Origin: Deltaproteobacteria bacterium
GTDB lineage: Bacteria > Desulfobacterota > Syntrophobacteria > BM002
Length of the DNA: 34,850 nucleotides
Direction of reading: 5' to 3'
Assembly (NCBI GenBank): GCA_022340745.1
Contig: JAJDNL010000301.1
Location: 1-34,850 of the forward strand
Shown here: positions 3,279-31,918 of the stretch, in pieces
Position numbering within the stretch: position 1 is the first letter of the stretch
How the letters are laid out: the number at the start of each line of letters is the position of its first letter
Made by a program: the position numbers and the translations under genes
Notes under the pieces: generated by a model
Database searches by the model: none
Seen by the model: the letters and a program-made list of their open reading frames with translations, nothing else
What the model was told of the DNA's origin: nothing

Positions 3279-3317
3279 CAGGAAGGTCATTGGGCATGGG
3301 GATACGCTGTGAGGCAA

Positions 3318-3399
3318 GCATGGAGCGTGGTGCATGGAGCATGGAGTAAAATCAAAAACAGCTGTCTCACCCCATGCCCTATGCCCCATGCTCTATACC
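3318..3399. repeat. Word-repeat palindrome (GCATGGAGC / CCCATGCCC)
   Basis: GCATGGAGCGTGGTGCATGGAG-type words fill 3318-3346, and their reverse complement (CCCATGCCCTATGCCCCATG) fills 3371-3397, with about 25 bp between. The tract ends exactly at the hemL stop codon (3400-3402). The transcript would fold into a long imperfect hairpin. Related words occur at 26967-26999, 30940-30968 and 31890-31918. Confidence 0.75.
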
Positions 3400-5856: not shown

Positions 5857-6054
5857 CTAGCCCGGATATTTCATGAATTGGTGTCGTGAGACCACAAAGA
5901 TGGACGTGCCACCTGGCAACTCGTCCCGCGGTACCGCGGGATTGGTTCCGAGGCGTACTTGAACAGTACGTCGTAGGGTCCGACACCCGAGGACGCCAGG
6001 AAGGACGGCCATATCCGTGGTCGCAGCAAGTGATTCATGAAATATCCGGGCTAG
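5857..6054. mobile_element. MITE-like element with 21-bp terminal inverted repeats
   Basis: The left end CTAGCCCGGATATTTCATGAA (5857-5877, given here as a 21-bp end: CTAG, CCCGGATATT, TCATGAA) is matched exactly in reverse complement at 6034-6054. The element is 198 bp and has no coding capacity. It contains a 16-bp perfect palindrome (5925-5940, core GCGGTACCGC) and a hairpin CGTACT/AGTACG (5954-5970). Because CTAG is itself palindromic, the outer four bases could be a target duplication rather than part of the repeat. Short, non-coding and inverted-ended, it fits a non-autonomous transposon moved by a transposase encoded elsewhere. Confidence 0.7.
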
Positions 6055-6687: not shown

Positions 6688-7596
6688 ATGAAGGCCACAG
6701 CACATTACCCTAACTTTAAGCCGTTGAGCTTAGAAGACCGGGACCAGATTACTGCTTTGTTTCACCAGAGTCCACCGGTCACTTCCGAACTAACCTTCAC
6801 CAACCTTTTCATGTGGCGGTACCATTATAACTTCCAGTGGTGCCTTGCCAACGATACGCTCTTGATCATCGGGCACATTGCCGGATCCCCACCCTTCGGT
6901 TTGCCACCAGTTGGGCCGCATGATCTATCTTCGGCTCTTGAGCAATTATTGAATTTTCTGGCAACCCATTCGGATACGCCAGAAATCCACCGGGTTCCTG
7001 AGGTTCTGGCCCAGCGTTACACGAACGCTCTCTCCCTTGAAGTTTTGGAGGATCGAGCCAATAGCGATTATGTCTACCGTACCGAATCCCTCATTAATCT
7101 GAGCGGTCGGAAGTACCACCGCAAACGCAATCACCTCAAGCAATTTCGCAAAAAATATTCTTACCGCTATCAAACCCTCAAGGATGACTGGATAGAGGCT
7201 TGTCTTGAGTTGGAAGAGCAGTGGTGTCGGCTCAAAAGCTGTGTGGAAAATCCGGCACTTCTCAATGAAGAACAGGCCATCCGAGAAGCCTTGCTTCACT
7301 ACCACCAACTGGATTGCCAGGGAGCTGCTATTGTGGTGGATGACAAGGTGGTGGCCTTCAGTTTGGGGGAACCTCTCAATCCTGATACGGCTTTGATTCA
7401 CCTTGAGAAGGCCGATCCTGAATTCTCCGGCAGCTACGCAGTGATAAATCAAGAATTTTGCCAAAACGTTTGGAGCGACTTCACCTACATAAATCGCGAA
7501 CAGGATCTGGGTGAAGACGGACTTCGCCAATCCAAACTGTCTTATTACCCGGATCATATGTCTAATAAGGTCATTCTGAAACAAAAGGATCGCTAG
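6688..7596 (+). CDS. DUF2156 protein (GNAT-fold, phosphatidylglycerol lysyltransferase-like)
   Basis: The 302-aa product matches the DUF2156/PF09924 family, whose fold is a tandem pair of GNAT acyltransferase-like domains related to the C-terminal half of MprF aminoacyl-lipid synthases. Visible family marks are GRKYHRKRNHLKQFRK at 140-155 in the second half, AAIVVDDKVVAFSLGE (213-228), and INREQDLGEDGLRQSKLSY (268-286), the best conserved block. There is no membrane segment, so it is probably cytoplasmic. The reaction is unknown; aminoacyl transfer to a lipid or a peptide is a family-based guess. It stands alone, flanked by repeat spacers on both sides. Confidence 0.8.
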   Translation: MKATAHYPNFKPLSLEDRDQITALFHQSPPVTSELTFTNLFMWRYHYNFQWCLANDTLLIIGHIAGSPPFGLPPVGPHDLSSALEQLLNFLATHSDTPEIHRVPEVLAQRYTNALSLEVLEDRANSDYVYRTESLINLSGRKYHRKRNHLKQFRKKYSYRYQTLKDDWIEACLELEEQWCRLKSCVENPALLNEEQAIREALLHYHQLDCQGAAIVVDDKVVAFSLGEPLNPDTALIHLEKADPEFSGSYAVINQEFCQNVWSDFTYINREQDLGEDGLRQSKLSYYPDHMSNKVILKQKDR

Positions 7597-7745
7597 TCAT
7601 TAGGTCATTCGGTCATTAAGTCACTGTGTCGCTTGGTCCATTTGATCACTGGATCATAGCTTTGCTTTTAATGGTGATCCCCTCTTGCAACGACCTGATG
7701 ACTCAATGACGGGCGCCAGCCCACGTGACCCAATGACAACTGAGA
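7594..7745. repeat. Word-repeat palindrome (GTCATTAGGTCATT)
   Basis: GTCATTAGGTCATTCGGTCA-type words run from 7596 to 7665 directly after the DUF2156 stop. The reverse-complement form (GACCTGATGACTCAATGACG, GTGACCCAATGACAAC) runs from 7692 to 7740. Related words occur at 5426, 19474-19493 and 27055-27075. The remaining 7746-7869 before ald holds a GC-rich stretch and no gene. Confidence 0.65.
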
Positions 7746-9046: not shown

Positions 9047-9192
9047 ATTCGAAATCCGAAGAACGAAGCACGAAACAAATTCAAAATTCCAATGTCTCAA
9101 TGTCCAAAACAAAAACTGGGGGACTTATATCGAGCTTTTACGGTTTTGGTCATTTGAAACTGGGGCCCCGGTTTTGATATTCGGATTTGTTG
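9047..9192. repeat. Dispersed TTCGAA/TTTCGG element, copy 1
   Basis: An A/T-rich tract of short words (AATTCGAAATCCGAAGAACG, ACGAAACAAATTCAAAATTCC) is followed by GGTCATTTGAAACTGGGGCC and TTTTGATATTCGGATTTGTT, so the end is a rough reverse complement of the beginning. The block GGGGCCCCGGTTTTGATATT (9163-9182) matches copy 2 almost exactly. The element runs to within a few bases of the ribosome site of the next gene. Confidence 0.65.
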
Positions 9193-10737: not shown

Positions 10738-11000
10738 TCAGCTGGCAGCTGACAGCAGGCAACTAGCAGCATGAAGAGTGTGGGCTGAAACAGAATCCTA
10801 AATTCGAAACAAATTTAAGATGGATGTGAGATGTGAGATCTGAGATGTGGGATATTAAATACCCAAAAAATGAGTTAAATTTCACATCGCATATCGCACA
10901 TCTTTTCCTTAGGATTTGTTTCGGATTTCGATATTGGTCCTGCGGACTCCCCACCCTACGGGCGGGGCCCCGGTTTCGATATTAGGATTTGCCTGAGGGT
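10738..11000. repeat. Composite repeat spacer, dispersed element copy 2
   Basis: Three layers can be seen. CAGCTGACAGCAGGCAACTA (10747-10766) resembles the end of murE. GATGTGAGATGTGAGATCTG (10819-10838) and its reverse form (CACATCGCATATCGCACATC, 10883-10902) make a palindrome. GGATTTGTTTCGGATTTCGA (10912-10931) leads into the block GGTCCTGCGGACTCCCCACC (10937-10956), which is nearly identical to 30774-30793. No gene is present. mltG begins 20 bp later. Confidence 0.65.
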
Positions 11001-12721: not shown

Positions 12722-13027
12722 TGCATCGCAATATAGGGTTCTACCCCTCCACATATAAGAGAAACGGAGACGCGGCGGCGCGGCGTGACTTTAACCCTAA
12801 CACAAAAGATTATGGTGGGTGAAGACAACAGGGGCTTCACGGATCAGGAATATGAACAGCGCAGCAGACCGTTTTTTGCCGCGTCGCCGCGTCTCCGTTT
12901 CTCTAACTCTGTCCAATCGGTTTGAGCCGATCAGAAACCCCACTGGGGTTTGGGATTCAATCTGTCAACCATCCCCGCATCGCGCTATCTGATGAGGGGT
13001 TAGAATTGGGCTTTCATTTACCCGGCG
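12722..13027. other. Spacer between mraZ and rsmH holding an inverted-repeat element
   Basis: This 306-bp gap is unusual, since mraZ and rsmH are normally close or overlapping. AGAGAAACGGAGACGCGGCG plus seven bases (12758-12784) pairs with 12878-12904, 26 of 27 positions, around 93 bp of non-coding sequence: a MITE-like or hairpin element. A second small hairpin AAACCCC-ACT-GGGGTTT is at 12935-12951. No reading frame or promoter stands out. Confidence 0.7.
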
Positions 13028-22178: not shown

Positions 22179-22344
22179 GACGGATACATTTTGGATTGCG
22201 GATTTCGGATTGCGGAATGAAGGTCGCAGAGCGCATAGCGAAAAGGCATGGAGAAAGGCGGGAGAGGGATTAGAGGTCAGAGATCAGACGACACAAGAAA
22301 GATGCTATGTTCGTTTTTCCTGACACCTGACACCTAGATGCAAC
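22179..22344. other. Spacer where murG would be expected
   Basis: No MurG-like frame is present. The stretch contains GGATTGCGGATTTCGGATTG words (22191-22210, related to the dispersed TTTCGG element), GGCATGGAGAAAGGCGGGAG (22244-22263), GATTAGAGGTCAGAGATCAG and GACACCTGACACCTAG. The same motifs appear in the ftsA-ftsZ spacer and before the MITE. It is repeat debris, not a broken gene. Confidence 0.6.
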
Positions 22345-22425
22345 CGACTAAACAGGCATAACTGACTAAACCGGCATAACCGGCTAAACCGGCACAACTG
22401 GCTAAACAGACTAAACTGACTAATG
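22345..22425 (+). repeat. Nine tandem 9-bp units ending in the murC start codon
   Basis: The units are CGACTAAAC, AGGCATAAC, TGACTAAAC, CGGCATAAC, CGGCTAAAC, CGGCACAAC, TGGCTAAAC, AGACTAAAC and TGACTAATG, at a strict 9-bp period. The ATG of murC is the end of the last unit. No Shine-Dalgarno sequence exists in the tract. Units change mainly at the first three positions and at TAA/CAT. Confidence 0.9.
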
Positions 22426-23830: not shown

Positions 23831-23900
23831 GGTGATGGGTAATGGGTGATCGGTAATAGGTGCTAATTACCTATAACCCATAACCTATGACCCATGACCA
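23831..23900. repeat. Word-repeat palindrome between murC and murB
   Basis: GGTGATGGGTAATGGGTGAT and CGGTAATAGGT (23831-23861) are answered by ACCTATAACCCATAACCTAT and GACCCATGACC (23869-23899), an imperfect 31-bp inverted repeat with a 7-nt centre. It also extends weakly outward (GTAGCCGAAGG / CCAACGGCTATGG) so that the murB start codon lies in its right edge. Confidence 0.85.
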
Positions 23901-25703: not shown

Positions 25704-26930
25704 ATGGCCAAAAAGGAATCTTTGATTGTAGGACTTGACATTGGAACCACGAAGATTTGCGCCGTGGTTGGTGAGGCTACCCCTGAAGGAATAGATATTG
25801 TGGGAATTGGCACTCATCCCTCTGATGGTTTGCGCAAGGGTGTGGTAGTCAACATTGAAAGCACAGTGAATTCAATTAAACGGGCAGTGGAAGAGGCTGA
25901 GTTAATGGCGGGCTGCGAAATCAATGCGGTCTACGCCGGCATTGCCGGTGGACACATCGAGGGGGTCAACAGCCATGGTGTGATCGCCGTGAAAAACCGT
26001 GAAGTAAGCCAGCAAGACATTGATCGGGTAATCGATGCCGCCAAAGCAGTGGCAATACCCTTTGATCGAGAAGTTATTCATATTCTTCCGCAAGAATATC
26101 TGATCGACGACCAGGGCGGTATTCAAAACCCTCTGGGCATGTCAGGCGTGCGCTTGGAGGCCAAGGTTCACATCGTCACGGGCGCTGTTACCTCAGCCCA
26201 GAATATCGTCAAATGCTGCCAGCGTGCCGGCCTTGACGTCTGTGACATTGTCTTGGAGTCCCTCGCCTCAGCAGAAGCAGTATTGAACCCGCAAGAGCGT
26301 AGGTTGGGCGTAGCCCTGGTGGATTTTGGTGGTGGCACTTCGGATTTGGCCATCTTTTCAGAACACAGTATACGTCATAGCTCGGTTCTCTCCCTGGGTG
26401 GGAATAATCTTACCAACGACATTGCCGTGGGATTGAGAACCCCGGTGGAAGAGGCAGAAAAAATCAAACAACGTTACGGCTGTGCTCTTACTGCCATGAT
26501 TCAAAAGGACGAGACTATCCAGGTGCCGAGTGTCGGAGGTGGCAAGGCAAAGGTGCTCAGCAGAGACATACTGGGTGAGATTCTGGAGCCACGAGTTGAG
26601 GAAATTTGTTCGTTGCTGCAACGAGAATTACTTCGGTCCGGCTATTCGGACCTGGTGGCTTCCGGTCTGGTAATTACCGGCGGCTCCTCTTTGCTGCCAG
26701 GGCTTGGTGAGTTGGCCGAGCAGGTCTTCAATTTGCCTGTTCGCACCGGTATACCCACTCAAATCGGGGGCCTGGCAGATGTGGTCAAAAACCCCATGTA
26801 CGCCACTGGAGTGGGATTGGTCCTTTACGGTGCCAACGCCACACCCAGAAAATTGTTCCGCATCCGTCAAAATAACATCTTCAACCGCTTAGTCGATCGG
26901 ATGCGTAAATGGTTTAGTGACATAGTGTAA
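25704..26930 (+). CDS. ftsA: Cell division protein FtsA
   Basis: FtsA is the actin-like protein that ties FtsZ filaments to the membrane. The 408-aa protein begins with IVGLDIGTTKICAVVGE (phosphate-1 loop), has the SHS2/1C domain about 85-165, VALVDFGGGTSDLAIF (phosphate-2) and VITGGSSLLPGL (adenosine site). The C-terminal NNIFNRLVDRMRKWFSDIV is the amphipathic membrane-targeting helix. AAGGGGGT stands a few bases before the ATG. In most genomes ftsZ starts within about 60 bp; here it is 618 bp away. Confidence 0.97.
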   Translation: MAKKESLIVGLDIGTTKICAVVGEATPEGIDIVGIGTHPSDGLRKGVVVNIESTVNSIKRAVEEAELMAGCEINAVYAGIAGGHIEGVNSHGVIAVKNREVSQQDIDRVIDAAKAVAIPFDREVIHILPQEYLIDDQGGIQNPLGMSGVRLEAKVHIVTGAVTSAQNIVKCCQRAGLDVCDIVLESLASAEAVLNPQERRLGVALVDFGGGTSDLAIFSEHSIRHSSVLSLGGNNLTNDIAVGLRTPVEEAEKIKQRYGCALTAMIQKDETIQVPSVGGGKAKVLSRDILGEILEPRVEEICSLLQRELLRSGYSDLVASGLVITGGSSLLPGLGELAEQVFNLPVRTGIPTQIGGLADVVKNPMYATGVGLVLYGANATPRKLFRIRQNNIFNRLVDRMRKWFSDIV

Positions 26931-27360
26931 GGAATTGAGGAATTGAGGGATTGAGGGATTGGGTAAAGCATGGGGCATAGGGCATGGAGCAGGGCGCATG
27001 GGGAGAAGAAGGGAAAGGCGAGAAGGGGATTAGAGGAGAGAGATCAGACGTCAGCAAGTCATTGGGTCATTATGTCGCCACGATGATTGACTAGAAGTGG
27101 CGGCGAAAAGTCAGAGGACAAAGGACGGAGCATAGAAGATAGGTTGGTTAATTAGAAAAATAGAAAATTAGTGAAACAGATAAATTGTTAACCGTTTACG
27201 ATTTGACGAATCGACGAATTAACGAATTTTCTCATAGCCTACTGGATTTTGACTACTGGCTACTGGATTCTTTGATTGTAGATTGCAGATTTTAGATTAC
27301 AGATTGGAGCATTGTGGAATTAAGGGATTGAGGAATTGGGGGATTGAGGAATTCATGCAT
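26931..27360. repeat. Mosaic of at least six word-repeat families between ftsA and ftsZ
   Basis: The spacer opens right after the ftsA stop. Successive blocks are GAATTGAGGAATTGAGGGAT (26932-26951); GCATGGGGCATAGGGCATGG (26967-26986); GGGATTAGAGGAGAGAGATC (27027-27046); GTCATTGGGTCATTATGTCG (27057-27076); TTAGAAAAATAGAAAATTAG (27151-27170); GACGAATCGACGAATTAACG (27203-27222); GCCTACTGGATTTTGACTAC then TGGCTACTGG (27236-27268); GATTGTAGATTGCAGATTTT (27274-27293); and GAATTAAGGGATTGAGGAAT (27317-27336). Most families recur elsewhere in the window. No promoter was recognised. Confidence 0.8.
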
Positions 27361-27379
27361 TTTGGCCCGGAGGGATACA

Positions 27380-27499
27380 ATGACACTGTCGGATCTTTAC
27401 TTTGTTTTGACTATGTTCTTTGTATGTATGGGCTGTTTTTTGGTTTTTACCACGGGGTTTGTCTTCTTCGCCCGCCGGCGACAAGGGAAGGGCTCGTGA
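27380..27499 (+). CDS. 39-aa single-pass membrane protein between ftsA and ftsZ
   Basis: A short frame with an excellent ribosome site (GGAGGG, five bases before the ATG) lies after the repeat mosaic and 49 bp before ftsZ. The product starts MTLSDLYFVLTMFFVCMGCF, continues as one membrane helix to about residue 30, and ends in a positive tail (ARRRQGKGS), so the C-terminus should face the cytoplasm. The base composition is unlike the repeat words around it. No family is recognised; short membrane subunits or division/stress micropeptides are possible. Position and ribosome site are the evidence; the function is unknown. Confidence 0.6.
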   Translation: MTLSDLYFVLTMFFVCMGCFLVFTTGFVFFARRRQGKGS

Positions 27500-27548: not shown

Positions 27549-28706
27549 ATGATGTTCGAGTTTGTCGAAAGTGACAACGGAGCCACGATCAAGGTGATTG
27601 GTATAGGTGGTGGTGGCGGCAACGCTATCAACAATATGATCAACGCCAATTTGATGGGAGTTGATTTCATCGCCGCTAACACCGACGCCCAGGCCCTGGA
27701 GGTTTCCAAGGCACACACTAAGCTCCAACTGGGAGTCAACATTACCAAGGGGCTGGGGGCCGGGGCCAACCCAGAAATCGGCCGCAGTGCCGCCCTGGAG
27801 GATGCTGACAAGATTCGGCAGGCCTTGGATGGCACTGACATGGTCTTCGTGACAGCCGGTCTGGGTGGAGGCACTGGCACTGGTGGTGCACCGGTAGTTG
27901 CTCAAATCGCCAAGGAAATCGGAGCGCTCACCGTGGCTGTGGTAACCAAACCATTCAACTTTGAAGGACGGCAACGCATGAAGACGGCCGACCACGGCAT
28001 CAAAGAGCTCCAGGAGACGGTGGATACCATTATTACCATTCCCAACAACCGTCTTTTGAGCCTGGCGGCCAAAAAGGCGACTTTCCTGGAAATGCTCAAG
28101 AAGGCGGACGACGTGCTCCTCTATGCCGTGAAGGGCATCTCCGATCTCATCACCATCCCGGGTTTGATCAATCTGGATTTTGCCGATGTCAAGACAATCA
28201 TGGGTGAGATGGGTATGGCTTTGATGGGCACCGGCATGGCTAGTGGTGAAGATCGGGCTACTGAAGCTGCCCAGAAGGCCATATCCAGTCCTCTGTTGGA
28301 GGATGTGTCCATTAGTGGTGCCAAGGGTGTGCTTATGAACATCAGCAGCGGACTGGACCTTACCATCGACGAGGTTCAAGAGGCATCATCACTGATTCAG
28401 CAAGAGGCCCACGAAGATGCCAATATTATCTGGGGCACGGTGCTGGATCAAAGTGCTGGTGACGAATTGAGGGTTACCGTTATCGCCACCGGAATCGGTC
28501 AAGTCGACGTCAGACCCAAACCCGACTTGGGAGTAATCCGTGGGTCTCGCCGTGACGATGACCTGGAAGTGCCCACCTTTTTGCGCCATAATAGGAAGAT
28601 CGAGGAAAACGCGACTGAACCCAGCCGCCCCATGAGTTACAAAGATCTTCCTATAGACGAGGACGAGTTGGAAATTCCAACCTTCCTCAGACGGCAGGCC
28701 GACTGA
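27549..28706 (+). CDS. ftsZ: Cell division protein FtsZ
   Basis: FtsZ is the tubulin-like GTPase that forms the division ring. The 385-aa protein has [18 protein letters not shown] (14-31), the tubulin signature GGGTGTG at 106-112 and the T7 loop [11 protein letters not shown]. An intrinsically disordered linker begins about 320. The tail that binds FtsA and ZipA-like partners appears twice: [12 protein letters not shown] (339-350) and [12 protein letters not shown] (374-385, the true C-terminus). AGGAGGTGG lies eight bases before tandem ATG codons (27549, 27552). It is separated from ftsA by a 618-bp repeat spacer and probably has extra transcription input. Confidence 0.98.
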
Positions 28707-30724: not shown

Positions 30725-30968
30725 ATTTTAAATCCGAATATCGAATATCGAAATTCGAAACAAATTCAAAATTGGTCCTGCGGACTCCCCACCCTGCGGG
30801 CGGGTCCCCAGTCTCGAATTCTCAAATGTTCAAAACAAAAAATAAATCAAGAATATCAAGCCTTTTCGGTTTCGATCATTTGGATTTTGGTAATTCGAAA
30901 TTGTTTCGGATTTCGTGCTTCGGATTTCGAATTTCTGACCCCATGCTCCATGCTCCATGCCCCATGCC
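30725..30968. repeat. Dispersed TTCGAA/TTTCGG element, copy 3, with CATGCCC words
   Basis: AATCCGAATATCGAATATCG (30731-30750) and CGAAACAAATTCAAAATTGG (30756-30775) are answered by GAAATTGTTTCGGATTTCGT and CTTCGGATTTCGAATTTC (30897-30936), forming a long imperfect hairpin. The centre carries GGTCCTGCGGACTCCCCACC (30774-30793), shared with copy 2. ATGCTCCATGCTCCATGCCC words (30943-30962) follow. The open frame across it (from 30659) is translated repeat DNA. Confidence 0.75.
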
Positions 30969-31774: not shown

Positions 31775-31918
31775 GCGGTAAACGGTAAACAGTAAGAGAT
31801 GTTAACCGTTATAGGTTAGACGTTACAGGTTGCTTTCCGACCTCTAACCTCTGATCTCTAACCTCTAATCCCCGTCTCGCTTCTCTCTCCATGCCCCATG
31901 CCCCATGCGCCATGCTCC
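31751..31918. repeat. Word-repeat tract that includes the exonuclease stop codon
   Basis: TTTGGTAAATGGTAAATCGT, GAGCGGTAAACGGTAAACAG and TTAACCGTTATAGGTTAGAC run from 31751 to 31821, and CCTCTAACCTCTGATCTCTA and ACCTCTAATCC (31841-31871) form the reverse-sense half. CATGCCCCATGCCCCATGCG words (31891-31910) end it. The stop TGA (31772-31774) is part of the first block. The rest of the spacer to 32111 has no gene. Confidence 0.7.

Follow-up and report, generated by a model that had tools for sequence, protein, structure and literature searches.

In the deltaproteobacterial genome G000, the spacer between ftsA and ftsZ holds a patchwork of about eight families of short repeated words, the interior of which is missing at this site in sister species. 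As an explanation we favour, tentatively and as something quite possible rather than probable, non-coding word cassettes spread throughout the genus, from which the patchwork could have been put together by ectopic copying or template switching between dispersed arrays, along with slippage. The cassettes are degenerate tandem arrays of 7-8 bp words lying between genes, either singly or as foldbacks in which complementary words are arranged as W...W′.

Results

Organization of the ftsA-ftsZ spacer

The window, that is, the whole stretch of 34,850 nucleotides analysed, is contig C218 of G000 (3.9 Mb, 301 contigs), and the nearest named records to its FtsA, at about 72%, come from Desulfobacterales and other deltaproteobacterial assemblies, in a listing that may lack the records closest to the window. 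The distance between ftsA and ftsZ is 618 bp and not about 430 bp, as a sequence-only reading had it; the array part ends near 27354, and an open reading frame (ORF) follows. This spacer is the longest among 100 loci having both genes, the rest measuring 3-509 bp (110 loci were examined, 10 of them without ftsZ, and 2 of the 100 are duplicate records). The features of the region are as follows:

25704-26930, + strand: ftsA (Pfam FtsA, 2.1e-52), with a TAA stop and the first array from the next base
26931-26961, + strand: left part of an older GGAATTGA octamer array that G001 and G003 also have
26964-27003, + strand: GCATGGR heptamer array opening composite module 1, with inverted recurrence at 30939-30968 and 31887-31908
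27004-27054, + strand: GAGAAGAAGGG...GGATTAGAGG...GATCAGAC block, remainder of module 1
27050-27078, + strand: GTCATTNG octamer array, a recurrent family
27091-27304, + strand: composite module 2, with the order CAGAGGAC, AATTAGAAA, ...TTTACCG, GACGAATT, CTACTGG, GATTNTAGATT kept
27150-27171, + strand: AATTAGAA array inside module 2 (array scan)
27195-27228, + strand: GACGAATT octamer array inside module 2 (array scan)
27239-27270, + strand: CTACTGG heptamers inside module 2 (from the sequence)
27274-27305, + strand: AGATTGC heptamer array (array scan)
27314-27354, + strand: right part of that older GGAATTGA array
27380-27499, + strand: genus-conserved 39-codon ORF, upstream GGAGGG, product MTLSDLYFVLTMFFVCMGCFLVFTTGFVFFARRRQGKGS
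27549-28706, + strand: ftsZ (Pfam Tubulin, 8.3e-50)

Word arrays occupy positions 26931-27361, where a low-threshold scan finds six arrays of period 7, 8 or 14 (212 bp in total), while 200 dinucleotide shuffles of the spacer gave a mean of 0.32 arrays and a maximum of 3. Three more blocks were identified via recurrence or by eye. The patchwork of at least six repeat families proposed earlier is therefore real, with about eight word families: GGAATTGA (twice), GCATGGG, a GGCGAGAAGGGGATTAGAGG...GATCAGAC block, GTCATTNG, AATTAGAAA, GACGAATT, CTACTGG and AGATTGC. Some of these blocks are found again at other window positions, in agreement with the recurrences claimed: GATTAGAGG before murC (22253-22293, 85%), GTCATT before ald (7596-7632), and GCATGGG near the exonuclease gene on the opposite strand (30939-30968 and 31887-31908). 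The patchwork folds no better than shuffles (z -1.02), so that the idea of the patchwork as a foldback was rejected, and the window has no Rfam match.

The 39-codon ORF before ftsZ is present in all nine genus genomes; no copy of it was seen in two further genera of the family. Its pairwise dN/dS is mostly 0.11-0.44, reaching 0.57 for two near-identical pairs, and it is apparently under purifying selection. The product, without a match in a Pfam search, is a probable single-membrane-span protein.

Comparison with sister species

In a tree of four window genes, G000 groups with G001, G003, G004 and G006 (92-93% identical), while G002, G005, G007 and G008 stand at about 77%. The patchwork interior is missing at ftsA-ftsZ in all eight, that is, the four nearest sisters and four other genus members. 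There, G001 has the GGAATTGA array only, G003 the same array containing two AGATTG heptamers, G006 (a genome rated 62% complete) a short remnant, and G004 a different foldback, CGAAGCA. A small GGAATTGA foldback occurs in G002, traces in G007, and no array in G005 and G008. The sisters lack the interior, yet two of them (G001 and G003) retain the GGAATTGA array that flanks it from the ftsA stop codon on. The alignments thus suggest that the patchwork was most likely gained inside this older array; loss from an ancestor that carried it would be a less simple alternative.

Word arrays in the window, the genome and the phylum

In 383 kb of G000, 270 arrays were found in 59.5 kb of intergenic DNA, corresponding to 45.4 per 10 kb, in comparison with 2.1 in coding and 0.2 in shuffled sequence (with genes defined by a simple ORF criterion). 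Period 7 or 14 accounts for 214 of the 270, and words drift unit by unit within a single array, with the register of 7 held. Some 20 word families, drifting into one another, were distinguished by greedy leader clustering, which lumps some of them; the main ones (GGAATTGA, GATGTGA, AGATTGC, GTAAACG and others) are mostly without G-runs.

Per 10 kb, the eight other genus members have between 6.9 and 42 arrays, two further genera of the family have 1.6 and 4.9, and six class relatives, from which small samples were taken, have 0 to 8.8. The GATGTGA pattern was present in 8 of 297 phylum genomes, with 128 occurrences in G000 and 104 in G297, which is from another family; the reversed pattern, as a control, gave 0 in those eight and matched in three others (16 times in G232). 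Since other families of the phylum have words of their own, the array feature is patchy. Several G297 contigs terminate within long perfect heptamer arrays (L206 1-55, L208 8873-8927, L210 1-55), and the true array lengths are hidden by these breaks. A distant member of the same phylum, G303 (L225), has one 20-kb stretch whose intergenic DNA, 2.1 kb in all, holds 9 arrays, again with words of its own.

Other array sites in the window are:

3317-3399, no strand: GCATGGR foldback pair (array scan)
7597-7656, + strand: GTCATTNG array before ald, at the same site in G007, with a CATTTAT foldback in G002
22193-22422, + strand: patchwork before murC, ending as a 9-mer array at the murC start
23831-23899, no strand: GGGTAAT foldback, with a same-family foldback in G004 and different words in other sisters
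31776-31918, no strand: multi-family foldback-like arrays after the exonuclease gene (array scan)

Equivalent spacers of the window hold different words in different species. The murC patchwork replaced sequence that is retained, at least partly, by G001, G002, G004, G005 and G008. The 9-mer array abutting the murC start (22369-22422, AACCGGCTA type) has related words in all six sisters compared there. Of 55 pairs of orthologous spacers, 19 had arrays in G000 only, 3 in the sister only, 18 in both and 15 in neither. In 93 array comparisons, where one spacer could be counted against up to four sisters, 26 align at 0.7 or above and 43 stay under 0.5; the coding flanks are at 90-91%. Higher turnover in array-bearing spacers was rejected: median excess identity was 0.041 in array-bearing and 0.079 in array-free spacers (n = 25 and 12, p = 0.34; 37 of the 55 pairs, with spacers outside 40-700 bp omitted and G006 as the only sister). 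As array-free spacers also diverge much, fast turnover is a trait of these spacers at large.

The window also contains elements of other kinds. At 5857-6054 lies an element of 198 bp, the 22-bp inverted ends of which match perfectly (CTAGCCCGGATATTTCATGAAT). Related copies occur at other places in G000 and, in G004, ahead of murC; this is a MITE-like family separate from the word arrays. A dispersed conserved core, GGTCCTGCGGACTCCCCACCC...GGGCGGGGCCCC, with CGAAGCA/TTCGAA words at its flanks, occurs at 10927-10991, 9162-9189 and 30765-30817, and G004 carries it in its ftsA-ftsZ and nuoH-nuoI spacers too. A long GC-rich foldback with a conserved core (GGTGAAGACAACAGGGGCTTCACGGA) at 12722-13027, without an Rfam match, is in the same place in G002, G005 and G008 and more diverged in G007; it could be a structured leader RNA.

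Composite modules

Module 2, roughly two thirds of the patchwork, aligns in unchanged internal order to other loci: to one elsewhere in the G004 genome (69% over 209 bp, gapped) and to loci in G003 (68% over 171 bp) and G005 (66% over 173 bp). A profile built from it recovered, at sampled loci, 34 de-duplicated copies of at least half its length, the window copy included, some low-scoring ones having just part of the words in common. Likewise, the module 1 stretch 26949-27054 is found again over 107 bp on contig C101 of G000 (75%). Since these two stretches recur elsewhere in the same internal order, the blocks probably arrived pre-assembled and were not built family by family here. Long-stretch identity between module copies is only about 66-80%, so donors were not identified. 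Pieces of the patchwork occur in 8 of 12 genomes searched, all within the genus; the whole patchwork is nowhere else in the 12.

These results bear on the earlier proposal of serial insertion, in which at least six single-family elements entered one after another at an ftsA-ftsZ hot spot. The number of families at the site, one in G001, two in G003 and about eight in G000, is what such a process could leave behind, and material was indeed gained inside an older array. Nevertheless, the composite stretches recur pre-assembled, which speaks against block-by-block gain, and the sister alignment yielded no intermediate with blocks gained singly. The G004 site, moreover, was wholly replaced by a different cassette. 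Nor is the site special, as spacers throughout carry arrays, with turnover across intergenic regions generally. Serial insertion is therefore a very unlikely account of the patchwork.

According to another explanation, each block grew in place by error-prone polymerase slippage, with 7 nt favoured and no copying between loci. The dominance of periods 7 and 14 (214 of 270 arrays in G000) and the drift of words unit by unit would be expected from it, and heptamers are given as the commonest long repeats in many bacteria (PMC4679880). On the other hand, the same composite order at unrelated loci and cassettes duplicated together with their loops require copying, and the foldback arms belong to one family yet are not local copies (see below). 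De novo slippage is already weakened for module 2, and we regard it as unlikely overall.

Entire nested cassettes are duplicated as well (84% over 145 bp and 79% over 223 bp). At nuoH-nuoI, G000 has an outer GATGTG foldback with a GGAATTGA foldback inside, and G004 has another cassette; because G005 holds only the outer foldback and G008 only its left arm, the outer one is older and the inner one younger. In G007, the place taken by word foldbacks in other species is occupied by a Y1-type, REP-associated-like transposase gene (L259), flanked by GGCCGATACGGAGATCGGCC and GGCGGGTCTCTGTACCCGCC hairpins. At kdsA, both G000 cassettes are missing from G006. General nesting was dropped for too few cases (1 nested, 2 sequential and 1 crossing over 735 kb, with one clear nested-insertion locus), and so was a general word order, as the family order is weakly non-random (119 of 167; null mean 106.7, maximum 120).

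Handedness and arms of foldbacks

Handedness of the foldbacks is fixed per word family genome-wide. Judged by purine content, 38 of 41 pairs in a first sample and 27 of 35 in a second were purine-first (the contigs of the second G000 sample were picked for their word hits, which biases its density, and handedness was recomputed on it separately). Most of the 11 exceptions among the 76 pairs are families consistent in their own orientation, and by eye 2 are clear reversals. An unsupervised test gave the same picture. Of the 7-mers occurring in at least two pairs, 42 of 59 always had one orientation, in comparison with a mean of 17.5 and a maximum of 33 in 500 random flips; 212 of 229 observations were in the majority orientation (random flip maximum 182). 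By orientation of the flanking genes, the conforming pairs divide into 19 (--), 18 (++), 7 (+-) and 6 (-+), with one flank unassigned in 3.

Position relative to genes follows a rule as well. In arrays no more than 60 bp from a gene end, W has the sense orientation behind stop codons (115 vs 19) and the antisense orientation ahead of starts (61 vs 12), most such arrays sitting after stop codons; between divergent genes the rule fails (19 of 37). In these counts and in the first arm comparison below, the signs of CACTAAG and CATTTAT, mis-set by G-skew, were flipped by hand. Array density between divergent genes in G000 is also lower, at 3.6 vs 6.1-7.7 per kb.

Foldback arms vary in unit number, and the loops, of 2-222 nt, are mostly unique. 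The match of a left arm to its own right arm, compared with same-family right arms elsewhere, had a mean percentile of 0.475 (p = 0.57, n = 39, these being the pairs out of 53 with enough comparison arms). With stricter comparison arms, available for 60 of 76 pairs, it was 0.42 (p = 0.018), own arms being slightly less alike. The two arms of a locus thus resemble each other no more than they resemble same-family arms at other loci. Local fold-back copying was rejected as the origin of arms on this ground, and a shared pool is favoured instead.

Foldbacks fold well (mean z -4.34, with 42 of 48 pairs below -2), and together with the position rule and the reduced density between divergent genes this would fit selected RNA structures, kept as 3′-end hairpins or terminators of the flanking genes. 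Such selection is nonetheless a very doubtful explanation, given the many unrelated word families, their quick replacement between sisters and the unexceptional folding of the ftsA-ftsZ patchwork itself. A Rho-site idea was dropped, as the geometry fits poorly and a usable literature source was lacking.

Candidate agents

Reverse transcriptase was above cut-off in 1 of 14 genomes, namely G000, and Ku was found in 0 of 12. Y1 transposase had no match in G000, the genome with the highest array density, and 1-7 in eight other genus members. None of the three follows array density, and they were rejected as shared agents because none is common to the array-rich genomes.

The arrays might be REPIN- or MITE-like miniature mobile elements with a transposase acting in trans. 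Foldback geometry and dispersed copies resemble REPINs (PMC3116915), and the Y1 transposases of other genus members include the one in the nuoH-nuoI spacer of G007. However, G000 is densest in arrays without any Y1 match, sister comparisons by eye revealed neither target duplications nor fixed ends at the word arrays, unit number varies between arms, and loops are mostly unique; we hold this origin to be quite unlikely.

The handedness could also come from word addition at broken ends, where 3′ ends would be extended by orientation-specific 7-nt words and then rejoined as W...W′, by analogy with fused telomeres. The rarity of clear reversals (2 in 76 pairs), the orientation of 7-mers beyond all 500 random flips and the common pool of arms agree with it. 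Set against these are the 13 of 14 relatives without reverse transcriptase above cut-off, the absence of Ku in 12 of 12, loops of 2-222 nt and the lack of a candidate enzyme, all of which make word addition highly improbable.

Discussion

Intergenic heptamer repeats are known from other bacteria in simpler form. Rehm et al. 2015 (PMC4692102) described GGGNATC/GGGGAYT heptamer repeats in Xanthomonas and Nostoc, which are degenerate, intergenic and present singly or as inverted pairs, and which form a single G-rich type with quadruplex potential. Their G-rich strand is sense after stops and antisense before starts, and the repeats are closer to the 5′ neighbour irrespective of gene direction and under-represented between divergent genes (PMC4692102). 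The arrays studied here share with them the tandem, degenerate 7-nt unit between genes, single or inverted, and the same position rule. Unlike those repeats as described, they comprise some 20 families joined in modules, mostly without G-run words, so that neither the GGGNATC word nor quadruplex G-tracts characterize the main families. Retention at the same site in sisters, as for the Rehm-type repeats, does not extend to our arrays (26 of 93 at 0.7 or above, 43 below 0.5).

MacGregor 2015 (PMC4679880) reported TAACTGA direct repeats in intergenic regions of marine Beggiatoaceae, often just before starts, as a single exact word whose near-variants are rarely repeated, with one indirect repeat reported. 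They resemble the 9-mer array at the murC start, while the arrays in general differ from that description in their many degenerate families, common foldbacks and position mostly after stop codons. Long simple sequence repeats (Mrazek 2007, as cited in PMC4679880) are ascribed to slippage, with 7 nt polymerase-favoured; the citing passage has no modules, handedness or pooled arms. In REPs (Bertels and Rainey 2011, PMC3116915), the unit is a short palindrome, and there is a link to REP-associated tyrosine transposases. Like REPINs (PMC3116915), the foldbacks are hairpin-forming inverted pairs dispersed between genes, but their arms are heptamer arrays of varying length, and G000 has no Y1 transposase match. 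A multi-family, modular form with fixed handedness was not found described in the open-access literature searched, and this form, with its fast turnover, looks new.

Copying between dispersed arrays, the explanation we favour, could proceed in several steps. A 3′ end formed during replication or repair, at or in a word array, would anneal to a word of another array and copy a composite stretch from this donor. The copied end would then return, or be joined, via a shared word such as GATTG, and unit numbers would afterwards be altered by slippage. Existing arrays would tend to receive new ones, because repeating words act as microhomology; at the junctions such microhomology was read by eye, and no junction was caught in the act. 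In regard to handedness, switching would join W strands to W strands only. Arrays that extend from W strands away from a gene, towards the spacer, would survive, and those that extend into a gene would be removed. Switching and survival do not fully explain fixed handedness, and template switching alone does not predict it.

Bacterial heptamer repeats have long been known and are usually put down to slippage. In this genus, the origin of arrays is testable because the whole genus has many families and the sisters are close enough for gain to be seen. Neither the fixed handedness nor the lack of extra likeness between the arms of a locus is predicted by slippage or by hairpin copying. Family-fixed foldbacks, pooled arms, growth from inside and movement of composite modules may also indicate heptamer words that propagate themselves, which we consider unlikely. 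If true, breaks or arrays between genes would be receiving 7-nt words in a specific orientation from an undescribed process of DNA synthesis or repair, one that works without reverse transcriptase, Ku or Y1 transposase. As for the ftsA-ftsZ spacer, its material is most likely tolerated DNA, and we claim no specific role for it in ftsZ expression; the spacer between core cell-division genes can be rewritten between close species.
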